Source: Candidatus Roizmanbacteria bacterium CG22_combo_CG10-13_8_21_14_all_34_12
Lineage (GTDB): Bacteria > Patescibacteriota > Microgenomatia > UBA1406 > GWC2-37-13
Assembly: GCA_002786595.1 (NCBI GenBank)
Contig: PCTC01000017.1
Location: 1-7,676, forward strand
Direction of reading: 5' to 3'
Length of the DNA: 7,676 nucleotides
This document shows positions 4,530 through 7,676 of the stretch, in pieces. The notes under the pieces were generated by a model. It had not been told where the DNA came from. It did not search any database and saw only the letters and a program-made list of their open reading frames with translations. A program made the position numbers and the translations under genes. Position 1 is the stretch's first letter. Each line of letters opens with the position of its first letter.

Positions 4530-4651
4530 GACGGTAGATGATAGATAATAGATGATAGTTGTTGAAGTTAGATGATAGAAGATAGAAACAATAATCTACC
4601 TTCAAGCCTCTATTTTCTAATACTATTCTCTATATTCAATCATCTATCGTC
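4530..4651. repeat. heptamer-built foldback filling the infC-rpmI gap
   Basis: The gap is a long imperfect inverted repeat. Folding 4530-4590 onto 4591-4651 without gaps pairs 42 of 61 positions. The outer 29 bases pair at 23, starting with GACGGTAGATGAT against ATCATCTATCGTC. The left arm is degenerate tandem heptamers: TAGATGA (4535), TAGATAA (4542), TAGATGA (4549), TAGTTGT (4556), then after one 6-base unit TAGATGA (4569), TAGAAGA (4576) and TAGAAAC (4583). The right arm keeps a strict 7-base step from 4594 to 4649, with CTA at positions 2-4 of most units. An alternative inner stem pairs 4562-4573 with 4594-4605 (11 of 12). There is no convincing ORF or terminator U-tract. In RNA it would form a long AU-rich hairpin just before rpmI. 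Confidence 0.75.
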
Positions 4652-4674: not shown

Positions 4675-4878
4675 ATGGCAAAAAATAAACCAAAAACAAG
4701 AAAGTCTGCCGCAAAAAGATTTAAAGTTAGTCCTAAGGGTAAAGTCTTGAATCGGGGACAAGGTTTTCGACATTTAAGGGGTAAAAAAAATAAAAGCTGG
4801 TTGAGACGCAAAAAGAAAACGTTAGAAGTGGTCGGGAGAATGAAAAGAAAAGTATTAATGATGTTAGGCAAGAAGTAG
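4675..4878 (+). CDS. rpmI: 50S ribosomal protein L35
   Basis: A 67-residue, strongly basic protein matching bL35 of the large subunit. It begins MAKNKPKTRKSAAKRFKV, corresponding to the family start with its KTxxxAAKRFK motif, and continues with KGKVLNRGQGFRHL and a lysine/arginine-rich tail. Length is normal (about 65 residues). Its place between infC and rplT is the conserved bacterial order. The ATG at 4675 is preceded only by AT-rich sequence with no Shine-Dalgarno. It is unusual in being isolated on both sides by about 125-150 bases of repeat-type spacer, where these genes are normally close together. It ends in TAG. Confidence 0.95.
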   Translation: MAKNKPKTRKSAAKRFKVSPKGKVLNRGQGFRHLRGKKNKSWLRRKKKTLEVVGRMKRKVLMMLGKK

Positions 4879-4994
4879 AAAATAGTTGTTCGAAAATAGT
4901 GAATAGTAATAGAAATTAGAGAATAGAAATTTGAAATTCAAGTTTTTAGTTTCGTTTTTCAATTACTAATTTCGAATCACTAACAACTAATTTC
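4878..4994. repeat. heptamer-built foldback filling the rpmI-rplT gap
   Basis: The spacer folds about base 4936. Pairing 4878-4935 with 4937-4994 without gaps gives 41 complementary positions out of 58, including GAAAATAGTTGTT against AACAACTAATTTC (12 of 13), AGTAAT against ATTACT in the same register, and TTGAA/TTCAA at the tip. Left units include TAGTTGT (4883), TAGTGAA (4897), TAGAAAT (4910), TAGAGAA (4917) and TAGAAAT (4924). Right units include CTAATTT (4966), CTAACAA (4980), CTAATTT (4987) and CTAAATA (4994). The design matches the infC-rpmI spacer. The left arm touches the rpmI stop and the right arm ends 9 bases before the rplT start. No ORF or terminator tract is seen. Confidence 0.75.
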
Positions 4995-5003
4995 TAAATA
5001 ACT

Positions 5004-5386: not shown

Positions 5387-6424
5387 ATGGTTGATGTTGG
5401 ACAAATAACAAAACTAGCAGAAAAAGAGATTAAACGATCAGTTAGTCTTGATGTTTTAAGTAAATTGGAGATTAAATATTTAGGCCGGAATGGTGAAATA
5501 AATAAATTGCTTTCTGCAATCAAAAATATCCCTGATGAACAAAAAAAAACCTACGGGCAAAGAGTCAATAAACTAAAAGCTTCGATGTATCGATACATCG
5601 AAACAAGGAAAAAAGAATTGCAAAATAAAAAATCTGGGGTTTTTTTTGATAAAACTTTACCTGGGAAAACCTATCCAAAAGGTAGTTTGCATATAGTTTC
5701 GTTTGCAATTGAAGAAATTACCAAAGTATTTGAAAAAATTGGGTTTATCCGCGTTTCATATCCCGAAGTCGACTGGGAATATGGCGCTTTTGAATCGCTA
5801 AATATGCCCGTTAATCACCCGGCACGGGATGACGTTGAAACGTCCTTCATTGACATGCCCGCTCATCCAAAATTAGGAAAAATGGTCTTAACTCCTCACA
5901 CTTCAAATGGTCAAAATCGGGAGATGAAAAGAGTCGGAAAACCACCAATAAGAATGATCAATATTTCCAAATGCTATCGGCCAAACTGGGACGCCACCCA
6001 CACCCCGATGTTTCATCAATTTGAAGGCTTATGTGTTGATAAAGATATTAGCATCGTCAATCTTAAAGGAACTCTTGATTATTTTGCGGAAAAATATTTT
6101 GGTGTTGGAACAAAAACCCGGCTTCGACCTCATCATTTTCAATTTACCGAACCTTCATTTGAGGTTGATATTTCATGTAACAATTGCGGTGGCACAGGGA
6201 TTATTAAAGCCAATCGTTGTAAAGTATGTAAATCCGGCTGGTTAGAGTTAGGAGGAACTGGGATGGTTCACCCCAATGTCCTGCGGGAAGGTGGAATTGA
6301 TCCTTCGGCAAGCTCAGGATGGGCATTTGGATTTGGAATAGAGCGGGTAATTATGATGAAATATGGATTAGATGATATTAGAAATTATTACAGCGGGGAC
6401 ATACGATTCCTGGAACAATTTTAA
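5387..6424 (+). CDS. pheS: phenylalanyl-tRNA synthetase alpha subunit
   Basis: Catalytic subunit of the alpha2beta2 class II synthetase that charges tRNA-Phe; 345 residues, normal length. The N-terminal tRNA-binding coiled coil covers about 1-80 and includes the family landmark KYLGRNGEINKL. The core holds the class II motifs: LTPHTSNGQ, the motif 2 region through DATHTPMFHQFEGL, FTEPSFEVD, GMVHPNVL, and motif 3 GWAFGFGIERVIMMKYGLDDIR near the C-terminus. An insertion after FEVD has four cysteines, Cys264, Cys267, Cys278 and Cys281, spaced CxxC-x10-CxxC, a likely zinc ribbon; similar inserts occur in many bacterial PheS. The stop is one base before the pheT start, so the subunits are probably translationally coupled. 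A 22-base palindrome lies in the coiled-coil coding part. Confidence 0.96.
   Translation: MVDVGQITKLAEKEIKRSVSLDVLSKLEIKYLGRNGEINKLLSAIKNIPDEQKKTYGQRVNKLKASMYRYIETRKKELQNKKSGVFFDKTLPGKTYPKGSLHIVSFAIEEITKVFEKIGFIRVSYPEVDWEYGAFESLNMPVNHPARDDVETSFIDMPAHPKLGKMVLTPHTSNGQNREMKRVGKPPIRMINISKCYRPNWDATHTPMFHQFEGLCVDKDISIVNLKGTLDYFAEKYFGVGTKTRLRPHHFQFTEPSFEVDISCNNCGGTGIIKANRCKVCKSGWLELGGTGMVHPNVLREGGIDPSASSGWAFGFGIERVIMMKYGLDDIRNYYSGDIRFLEQF
5581..5602. repeat. 22-base perfect palindrome inside pheS
   Basis: The half-site TTCGATGTATC (5581-5591) is followed immediately by its exact reverse complement, giving perfect dyad symmetry with no spacer. As RNA it would form a 9-bp stem with a TCGA loop (5590-5593). 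It is read in frame as residues within SMYRYIETR of the N-terminal coiled coil, so the protein reads through normally. It could be a protein-binding site, a remnant of a mobile palindrome, or chance. Confidence 0.7.
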
Positions 6425-6425
6425 A

Positions 6426-7676
6426 ATGAATATCAAAATAACTCACAAGTGGCTTCTCGACTATTTAGACACTGACGCGACTCCTGATCAAGTTCGCGAG
6501 TATCTTTCTTTGTGTGGTCCATCGATTGAAAGTGTGGAAAAAATTGGAAGTGACTACGTTTTTGATATTGAAGTGATTTCAAATAGGATTGATTATGCAT
6601 CAGTTCTCGGTATTGCCCAAGAAGCCGTTGCAATCCTCCCGATGTTTGGAAAGAAGGCAAAATTTAAGGAAAATCCGTTAGAGAAATATAATTTTAAAAA
6701 ATATTATCTTACCCACGATCGTGATATAGATAATAAAAAACTTAATATTGAGATTAAAAATAAATTTCTGTGCCCACGTTTTACTGCCGTTATTATTGAT
6801 AACGTAAAAATTGGGACATCACCGAAATTTATTACGGAAAGATTAATTGCTTGCGGTATTAAATCAATAAACAACGTCGTCGACATATCAAATTATCTGA
6901 TGTTAGCATTCGGTCAACCTGTCCATGTATTTGATTATGACCAAATAAAAGGAGAGACGATGATTATGAGAGAATCTAAAAAAGGTGAAAAAATTGTTAC
7001 TTTGGATGAAAAAGAAGTTACATTACCGGGTGGAGATATTGTTATGGAAGATGGATCCGGACGATTAATCGATCTTTGTGGAATAATGGGGGGCTTGAAT
7101 TCGGCAATCACTGAAAAGACAAAAAGCGTTGTGCTTTTTGTCCAGACTTATGACAAAGTCCAAATCAGAAAAACAACCATGTCTACCGGTGTTAGAACCG
7201 TTGCCTCGACTTTTTTTGAAAAGGGACTTGATCCAGAAAGGGTTGAGCCGACTTTAGTTTTCGGTGTTGAACTTTTGGAAAAATATGCAGGAGGAAAAGT
7301 CGCATCGAAAATTTACGATATTTATCCTAAACCAAGTAAAGAAAAGCTATTAATGATGAGTTACAGGTTATTTGATAAAAAAATCGGCGTTGAAATACCA
7401 AGAAAAAAAATTAATGAAATCTTGATAAATTTAGGGTTTACCGTTGGGGAGGACTCAAAACAGGGTCTGACCCTCGTCGAGGGTCAGACCCTACATATAA
7501 CCGTTCCATCATTCCGAACTAACGATATCAATATCCCCGAGGATATAATTGAAGAGGTTGCCCGTGTTTATGGATATCAAAATATTCCCTCGGTCTTGCA
7601 GCCAATTGTTTATGTTGATCAGCCAAAAGAGATGGAAGACATATTTGTTTTCCAAAATCGCATTAAAATATTTTTA
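6426..7676 (+). CDS. pheT: phenylalanyl-tRNA synthetase beta subunit, 3' end outside window; lacks EMAP-II-like domain
   Basis: The first 417 codons of PheT are present, and the frame is still open at the window end. The beta subunit edits mischarged Tyr-tRNA-Phe and binds tRNA. The protein opens MNIKITHKWLLDYL, then GPSIESVEKI (about 31-40), and passes directly to VFDIEVISNRIDYASVLGIA (45-64). Full-length bacterial PheT has about 100 residues of EMAP-II-like OB fold between these two points, so that domain is absent. The B3/B4 editing region follows: CPRFTAVIIDNV, INNVVDISNYLMLAFGQPVHVFDYD, GEKIVTLDEKEVTLPGGD, GIMGG and FEKGLDPERVEP. Next comes the B5-like segment with VPSFRTNDINIPEDIIEEVARVYGYQNIP, carrying a palindrome-encoded insertion at residues 346-356. 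The start is one base after the pheS stop. The gene is incomplete only because the window ends. Confidence 0.94.
   Translation, partial: MNIKITHKWLLDYLDTDATPDQVREYLSLCGPSIESVEKIGSDYVFDIEVISNRIDYASVLGIAQEAVAILPMFGKKAKFKENPLEKYNFKKYYLTHDRDIDNKKLNIEIKNKFLCPRFTAVIIDNVKIGTSPKFITERLIACGIKSINNVVDISNYLMLAFGQPVHVFDYDQIKGETMIMRESKKGEKIVTLDEKEVTLPGGDIVMEDGSGRLIDLCGIMGGLNSAITEKTKSVVLFVQTYDKVQIRKTTMSTGVRTVASTFFEKGLDPERVEPTLVFGVELLEKYAGGKVASKIYDIYPKPSKEKLLMMSYRLFDKKIGVEIPRKKINEILINLGFTVGEDSKQGLTLVEGQTLHITVPSFRTNDINIPEDIIEEVARVYGYQNIPSVLQPIVYVDQPKEMEDIFVFQNRIKIFL
7462..7492. repeat. 31-base GC-rich palindromic element in frame within pheT
   Basis: Two perfect 15-base arms, AGGGTCTGACCCTCG (7462-7476) and its exact reverse complement (7478-7492), flank a single T at 7477. 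Each arm also contains a smaller palindrome, AGGGTC-T-GACCCT at left and AGGGTC-A-GACCCT at right, so the element is two inverted 13-base units joined by CGTCG. It is 20/31 G+C, well above its AT-rich surroundings. It is read without stops as part of residues 346-356 (QGLTLVEGQTL), between VGEDSK and HITVPSFR, a variable turn in the B5-like domain. The layout resembles a pair of inverted REP units or an in-frame palindromic element of the Rickettsia RPE kind. Confidence 0.85.

Follow-up and report, generated by a model that had tools for sequence, protein, structure and literature searches.

The Palindrome in the pheT Gene

The window, that is the whole stretch of 7,676 nucleotides analyzed here, carries an operon-like run of genes ending with pheS and then the start of pheT; names of genes other than pheT are presumed from their sequences. 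Inside pheT (table 1) lies a perfect inverted repeat of 15+1+15 bases, AGGGTCTGACCCTCG-T-CGAGGGTCAGACCCT, which contains two AGGGTCWGACCCT units and is read in frame as QGLTLVEGQTL, residues 346-356 of PheT when numbered from the ATG at 6426 and part of its B5 domain (residues 312-384). The initial annotation had described these perfect 15-base arms around a single T, in frame in pheT at 7462-7492, and was right in coordinates and structure, as in its figure of about 65% G+C in an AT-rich gene (64.5%, vs. 35.1% in the remaining part of pheT). With spacers of up to 5 bases allowed, no other perfect palindrome of the window is as long; among 60 Markov sequences matching the window in length, the longest arm had 12 bases, and arms of at least 11 appeared in two. 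When up to two mismatches are tolerated, AGGGTCWGACCCT occurs in the window only as the two units of the palindrome, against an expectation of 0.06, and two or more occurrences were found in 1 of 200 shuffles. Chance formation is ruled out by these shuffle and Markov controls.

Table 1. Features in and around the pheT Palindrome, with Positions in the Window
Feature	Position	Strand	Remark
pheT, phenylalanine--tRNA ligase beta subunit	6426..7676	+	Truncated by contig end
Imperfect palindrome TATTATCTTACCCACGATCGTGATATAGATAATA	6702..6735	.	Another PheT loop; 81% complementary
REP doublet (REPIN-like palindrome)	7462..7492	.	In frame in pheT
First 13-base unit AGGGTCTGACCCT	7462..7474	.	
5-base linker CGTCG	7475..7479	.	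Differs among copies and among species at one site
Second 13-base unit AGGGTCAGACCCT	7480..7492	.	Inverted with respect to the first

Other repeats were seen in the same window. Within pheS, positions 5581-5602 form a perfect 22-base palindrome, TTCGATGTATCGATACATCGAA, with arms of a length (at least 11) reached in 2 of the 60 Markov sequences; no such palindrome was listed in the pheS-bearing pieces of two related genomes, G002 and G008. Two AT-rich intergenic stretches, 4530-4650 and 4871-4999, hold imperfect TAGATGATAGA-like and GAAATTAGAGAATAG-like repeats together with inverted partners.

Copies in the Same Genome, Its Sisters, and Wider Databases

The genome from which the window derives (G000; 649,759 bases in 84 contigs, 76% complete) contains 10 AGGGTCWGACCCT units and seven doublets, the reversed-pattern controls giving zero in both cases, so that a unique insert is ruled out and the recurrence predicted by the initial annotation is borne out. 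Exact AGGGTCNGACCCT units number 14, of which 13 belong to the seven doublets, one of these pairing an exact unit with a unit that carries one mismatch, and one stands alone in topA. The copies are thus dispersed and mainly doublets, as in REPINs, and the pheT palindrome is a real, dispersed REPIN-like element lying in frame. The single 13-base unit of topA is also in frame, at the same place in G000 (L001 1501-1513) and G008 (L200 1615-1627).

Scanning 72 genomes of the family with up to three mismatches, a threshold that misses more decayed doublets, we found doublets at 7 places in G000, 17 in G008, 10 in G002, and 9 in G014, none in the remaining 68 genomes, and none with the reversed control in any genome. 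Exact AGGGTCNGACCCT units among the 20 genomes of the genus are similarly distributed (14 in G000, 35 in G008, 16 in G002, 22 in G014, and 1 in G016), being absent from the other 15; the reversed control occurs once each in G005 and G007. Among 84,980 GTDB species, which may not include the G000 records, a search for the doublet with any linker of 5 bases gave 26 stretches, of which three Candidatus Roizmanbacteria genomes (G014, G008, and G002) contributed 25. A wide spread of the doublet is therefore rejected, just one stretch lying outside Roizmanbacteria, namely L107 5476-5506 in a Portnoybacteria contig remote from the genus; it holds a single doublet linked by TAAAA, and the piece examined shows no HUH motif. 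The viral contig set searched returned no doublet, and a phage origin was dropped for want of such a match.

The 43 places of the family scan were sorted into 41 copies at 23 sites, two overlapping pattern hits of G002 being counted once, as was the G008 copy at which two contig ends overlap. Most sites are outside genes: 12 of the 23 (20 copies) lie outside genes or touch just the upstream part of a frame, and five (7 copies) lie at the ends or junctions of open reading frames, including the C-terminus of a RAYT (REP-associated transposase) itself. The remaining six (14 copies) are inside open frames, namely those of pheT, an ATP-dependent DNA ligase, lepA, a PaaX-like protein, a glycosidase-like protein (our own reading, for it has no Pfam match), and a DHH protein resembling RecJ, whose frame exits the sequenced piece two codons past the element. 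Copies within genes are read in two frames only, producing peptides of the types GLTLxEGQTL and GSDPxxGSDP, a usage seen in the pheT, ligase, lepA, PaaX-like, and glycosidase-like genes. The third frame meets a TGA when the center is T; at one G014 junction (C21), this TGA terminates the upstream open reading frame. Elsewhere in G000 (C64; L016 147-2363) a doublet sits between a glycosyltransferase and a FemAB-like domain of a single 739-residue frame, and a similar glycosyltransferase frame of G008 (L109) stops directly after the element.

RAYT Transposases and Their Flanking Doublets

Hits of Y1 type are present in 15 of the 20 genomes of the genus. The RAYT frames of G008 C8 (248 residues) and G014 C11 (255 residues) each lie between two doublets having C-NNN-G linkers, and in G008 C24 and G002 C64, where the RAYT is of a second type (245 residues), the doublets on either side have GTGTT as their linker; in all, four RAYTs of three sisters bear the doublet on both sides, with two flanking REPs apiece. 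The enzymes of G008, G014, and G002 contain MPNHFH together with YIHRNP or YIHLNP, hence the HUH motif and the presumed catalytic tyrosine. Across the 11 close RAYT loci, HFH and YIHxNP are combined in eight, the other three having HxH without the second pattern. Matches to profile models are modest: three of the RAYTs tested against NCBIfam NF047646 (REP-associated transposase) scored a weak 33-35 bits, below the cut-off of 80, and PF01797 matched at 25.8, slightly above its cut-off of 23.

Several RAYTs with 47-59% identity to the G014 enzyme (those of G015, G008 C22, G005, G011, and G017 C18) have nearby hairpin doublets in other letters, for example AGGTCCGTCCT with AGGACGGACCT, or AAGACAGTCTT; at G017 C18, where the locus ends early, the doublet is on one side. 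Transposase and repeat therefore tend to change together. The RAYT of G009 C9, with one internal stop, has a single palindrome on one side only, and the hairpin scan gave no palindrome at G017 C10, though related letters are visible.

Within the 20 genomes of the genus, all those that have the doublet, except G000, also have a RAYT with 66% or more identity to the G014 enzyme. In this incomplete assembly we saw no RAYT flanked by the AGGGTCWGACCCT doublet; there are two IS200-like hits, one of which runs off the end of its contig, and a RAYT fragment of 40 residues that lies at the end of another contig, lacks its start, and has a different repeat as its neighbor. The RAYT partner envisaged by the initial annotation thus exists in the genus and is doublet-flanked in the sisters, but not visibly so in G000. 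The opposite case is G016 (97% complete), in which the best RAYT hit has 31% identity, doublets are absent, pheT holds half an element, lepA has a remnant-like stretch, and the ligase site is empty; as a single case, this pattern fits decay in a lineage without the transposase, whereas G000 has intact arms and no visible cognate RAYT.

Could the association with RAYTs be coincidental, the doublet being moved by an ordinary IS200-like transposase or copied by template switching during replication? The IS200-like Y1 hits of G000 and its lack of a visible cognate RAYT would suit such a mechanism, which nevertheless has to contend with the four doublet-flanked RAYT genes, with the presence of a close RAYT in every other doublet-bearing genome of the genus, and with the distinct doublets owned by several other RAYTs; we regard it as very unlikely.

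The PheT Loop and Its Various Inserts

The comparison with other PheT proteins supports the initial observation that they are shorter at this turn. In the alignments examined, the PDB chains 2rhq and 2rhs lack 9 residues at the position of the insert, and 36 of 50 loci have a loop of 16-17 residues from F to VPS, as opposed to 25 in G000 (G031 and G049 also have 25, with no palindrome). Relative to the usual loop, PheT is longer by a net 8-9 residues, fewer than 31 bases would encode, and for this reason the insert cannot be delimited exactly. That the loop might be a conserved PheT feature, the counter-case raised with the first reading, was rejected, the residues QGLTLVEGQTL not being conserved in distant PheT proteins. 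In the AlphaFold model of full-length PheT (mean pLDDT 84; pTM 0.59) the insert corresponds to residues 364-374, between predicted strands 357-360 and 373-378, and pLDDT falls below 50 at 362-370. Such a loose turn in the model agrees with tolerance of the insert without proving it; of the tolerated surface turn proposed initially, it is the low confidence between two strands that the model bears out.

Other palindromes occupy the same loop. At the DNA level, G017, G025, and G035 carry ACCATCT-like palindromes there, matched by none of 100 shuffles. This test covered 50 loci with 100 shuffles each, and the doublets too gave 0 of 100; the ordinary-length loops of G019 and G045 also reached 0.01, a value that is weak by itself. 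The loop stretch of G009, which we take to belong to a repeat family, is no more palindromic than its shuffles (0.75). The ACCATCT..AGATGGT palindrome was found at 13 places in 7 of 23 genomes, with none for the control, and nine of these places are in frame in open reading frames of at least 120 residues. In a like context in three species (G000 C13, L231; G002 C47, L230; G008 C3, L228), the palindrome ACCATCT..CGATCG..AGATGGT is translated in frame as YHLSNDRAKMV or YHLNNDRAKMV; the protein of G000 has matches to models of nucleotidyl- and pantetheine-phosphate adenylyltransferases.

Among 119 PheT proteins (one of 120, P0066, ends short of the loop and was left out), 21 have the doublet peptide, 7 half of it, 17 an ACCATCT-type peptide, 5 a VGxxSLQ peptide, and 69 none of these. 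These labels follow our own peptide patterns, which have a DNA-level basis for the doublet in four species and for the ACCATCT-like type in G017, G025, and G035, VGxxSLQ being known as protein only. A quick tree of the 119 proteins, built without the loop, implies that the doublet changed state 11 times or more, gains and losses lumped together, and at least seven of these changes are forced by starred branches (33 of the 114 inner branches are starred). The tree would favor repeated events on the longer scale.

A second PheT loop shows a comparable variety: the window and G008 have an imperfect palindrome there (6702-6735 in the window), and G002 and G016 a GTAGGGAAC..GTTCCCTAC palindrome. 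The pheT of G014 has a second in-frame doublet at C12:948-973 (L104), of the AGGWCNGWCCT family (AGGACAGTCCTTATAAGGACGGACCT), and in G016 a perfect 20-base palindrome, GGACAATTCATGAATTGTCC, lies about 360 bases upstream of pheT (L020 1144-1163).

Re-used Loops in Other Proteins

Depending on the species, different inserts occupy the loops of PheT, DNA ligase, LepA, and the PaaX-like protein. In the ligase, the doublet is present in G002, G008, and G014, arrays resembling by eye the RAYT-side repeats of the same species are found in G017 and G011, G005 and G007 have a longer, dissimilar stretch, and the loop is short in G016, G015, and others. The lepA loop has the doublet in G002 and G008 and, by eye, other inserts in G014, G019, G035, and G011; the PaaX-like site has it in G000 and G008 and, again by eye, another repeat in G014. 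Deducing insertion borders and a target motif from the empty ligase and lepA sites was abandoned because these loops are too variable. Proteins of L091, L100, L096, and L097 contain other repeat-like peptides (LPAGRQVG, LPAGKQ, AKASADK, and AEASAKAG), which may represent additional repeat families within coding sequence.

One pheT Site in Four Species and the Constancy of the Arms

In pheT, the element lies at the identical base, and in the same phase, in G000, G002, G008, and G014. Here the arms are identical in all six species pairs, whereas the flanks are 72-75% identical, and these copies, found through the protein, are free of the bias of an arm search; they are the cleanest case, that of one gene. 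The linkers differ in all four (CGTCG, CCTGG, CCGAG, and CCGGG), the CGTCG type expected by the initial annotation being present in G000 and just one of several. In G002 both center bases are swapped (A..T for T..A), which preserves the palindrome, and the predicted energy of the RNA hairpin is -27.3 kcal/mol in all four copies. As the G008 contigs C11 and C16 end and overlap at the pheT copy, an assembly artefact or contamination might be suspected; we give it practically no credence, because separate assemblies agree on the position and protein clusters from several sources bear the peptide.

The same contrast extends to the 13 shared sites, which provide 24 species pairs: arms agree in 573 of 576 letters, counting the 24 letters of the two units and leaving the centers out, and flanks in 5314 of 6715, a difference that is overstated outside pheT since near-exact arms were the search pattern. 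Centers agree in 30 of 48 letters and linkers in 66 of 120. These variable positions tend to be complementary: center bases are complementary in 32 of 38 copies (shuffle mean 13.8; none of 20,000 shuffles as high) and the inner linker pair in 23 of 38 (shuffle mean 10.7; not reached in 20,000 shuffles), counts which shared descent inflates and which omit three of the 41 copies, with altered arms, in G002 C45, G008 C5, and G014 C9. Linkers at one site are more alike than those across sites and genomes (P = 0.033), but linkers within a genome are not clearly more alike than those between genomes (P = 0.077), and their concerted evolution within genomes was accordingly not retained. Similarity by site and not clearly by genome speaks for vertical descent rather than frequent re-copying.

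These observations could be accommodated by one old insertion, inherited vertically, whose letters have been held by host selection for a useful peptide loop or a useful hairpin of the pheT mRNA or DNA. The common base and phase in four species, the resemblance of linkers at one site, and the uniform hairpin energy would all follow. Yet the same arms recur without change between genes and inside unrelated ones, and some close relatives have, judging by peptide, no element, half of it, or another insert, G016 being the example of a half element; this explanation appears unlikely to us. The data need no function of the 11 residues, and the PheT loop is likely a passive harbor.

Probable Origin and Possible Upkeep of the Element

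In evolutionary terms, the question becomes how a copy came to this loop and why its arms remain the same. The explanation that we consider quite probable is the following: the element in pheT belongs to a scattered family whose inverted 13-base repeats flank RAYTs in sister species, and a RAYT likely inserted it into a PheT loop which is loose in the model and likely tolerant of inserts. As an enzyme of the HUH type, the RAYT would bind the hairpin of single-stranded DNA, cut beside it, and join it elsewhere. In genes, the insertions that survive would be those which keep the frame, miss the TGA frame, and are permitted by the fold. The uniformity of the copies would then come from continued re-copying dependent on the RAYT, or from the disappearance of copies with altered arms. 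The movement of the doublet by a RAYT is something that we infer from comparing sequences. The initial proposal of a mobile palindrome that invaded pheT is strengthened by the recurrence of the element and by the doublet-flanked RAYTs of the sisters, but the insert is not private to one species, four having it at an identical position.

Against this has to be weighed the possibility that each lineage received its own copy at a favored target, with arms too young to have changed and no upkeep. It shares with our preferred explanation the core of insertion by a RAYT, the odds of the two overlapping, and it would be in keeping with the number of state changes in the PheT tree, with the other palindrome type found in the DNA of the same loop in G017, G025, and G035, and with the opposite sense of the G002 center bases. 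On the other hand, it would have to produce an insertion at the identical base in four species whose flanks differ by about a quarter, no strict target motif is apparent by eye, and further sites, including intergenic ones, are common to two or three species. We consider it possible, if doubtful. The shared base would favor, among G000, G002, G008, and G014, a single insertion with upkeep.

Returning to RAYT insertion followed by upkeep, a bolder version can be formulated, which we advance tentatively and think rather improbable. A few loops of essential proteins in this clade would be standing docking places at which palindrome families replace one another over species time, and the RAYT would rewrite its own copies in place, fixing the arms while linker and center drift in matched pairs. 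If so, a mobile element would maintain its sequence at fixed addresses rather than surviving by jumping.

Comparison with Known REP Systems

REPs are named for lying outside genes. What is gained here is an insert traceable at one pheT base through four species, with a fifth (G016) that has half the insert and no close RAYT, and therefore a setting in which one can test how such an insert persists where the transposase is present and where it is not. The different inserts of the PheT, LepA, DNA ligase, and PaaX-like loops bear on how unusual insertions in proteins of Patescibacteria are to be interpreted and on the search for sites at which a protein can accommodate added peptides. Among the best-ranked matches in the open-licence PMC literature, we found no report of REP-like elements in Patescibacteria or the Candidate Phyla Radiation. 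According to the part available of one recent study, the persistence of REP populations is an active question (PMC8049555).

The closest known system is that of REPINs and RAYTs, as described in the available portions of two papers (Nunvar 2010, PMC2817692; Bertels and Rainey 2011, PMC3116915). As in REPINs, two inverted REP units form one hairpin, the copies are dispersed and mostly doublets, and the RAYTs of the sisters are flanked by the same units; as reported for Proteobacteria in the accessible text of PMC2817692, where transposase and REP change together, RAYT and repeat letters tend to change together here. In contrast to the inter-REP spacings of 71 and 110 bp reported for two REP groups of Pseudomonas fluorescens, the whole doublet has 31 bases with a 5-base linker; it has no GTAG head and a low copy number, and its host belongs to Patescibacteria. 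Placement differs as well, 6 of 23 sites being inside genes, whereas in the material consulted 14 of 1067 16-mers of P. fluorescens SBW25 overlap genes.

Intragenic GTAG and CGTC REPs and their dimers, including cases in tRNA synthetase and DNA ligase genes, together with different REPs at about one recB site in two Xanthomonas species, are described in the accessible part of Di Nocera (2013, PMC3733652). The present doublet likewise lies inside reading frames, synthetase and ligase genes included. Unlike the REPs of that description, its units do not end in a fixed GTAG or CGTC, and the arms can be traced unaltered at a single site over four species. A constant unpaired GTAG or GTRG head is absent, linkers are CGTCG, CGACG, CCAGG, CCGGG, GTGTT, and others, and the outer flanks vary; CGTC appears only in the linker of some copies, which, with the RAYT partner of the sisters, separates the element from CGTC-type REPs.

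Palindromic elements in frame in unrelated genes are also known from Rickettsia, at about 150 bp in the review portion consulted (PMC10969869); two of them, RPE-4 and RPE-6, are equated with CGTC REPs, without a transposase partner, in the accessible part of Di Nocera (PMC3733652). The doublet resembles them in being a palindrome in frame in genes of unrelated function. As far as those descriptions go, it is set apart from them by its 31 bases, its different host, and the RAYTs paired with it in the sisters. The element works like a very short REPIN, and what is notable in it is the identity of its arms and the re-use of the protein loops in which it is found.
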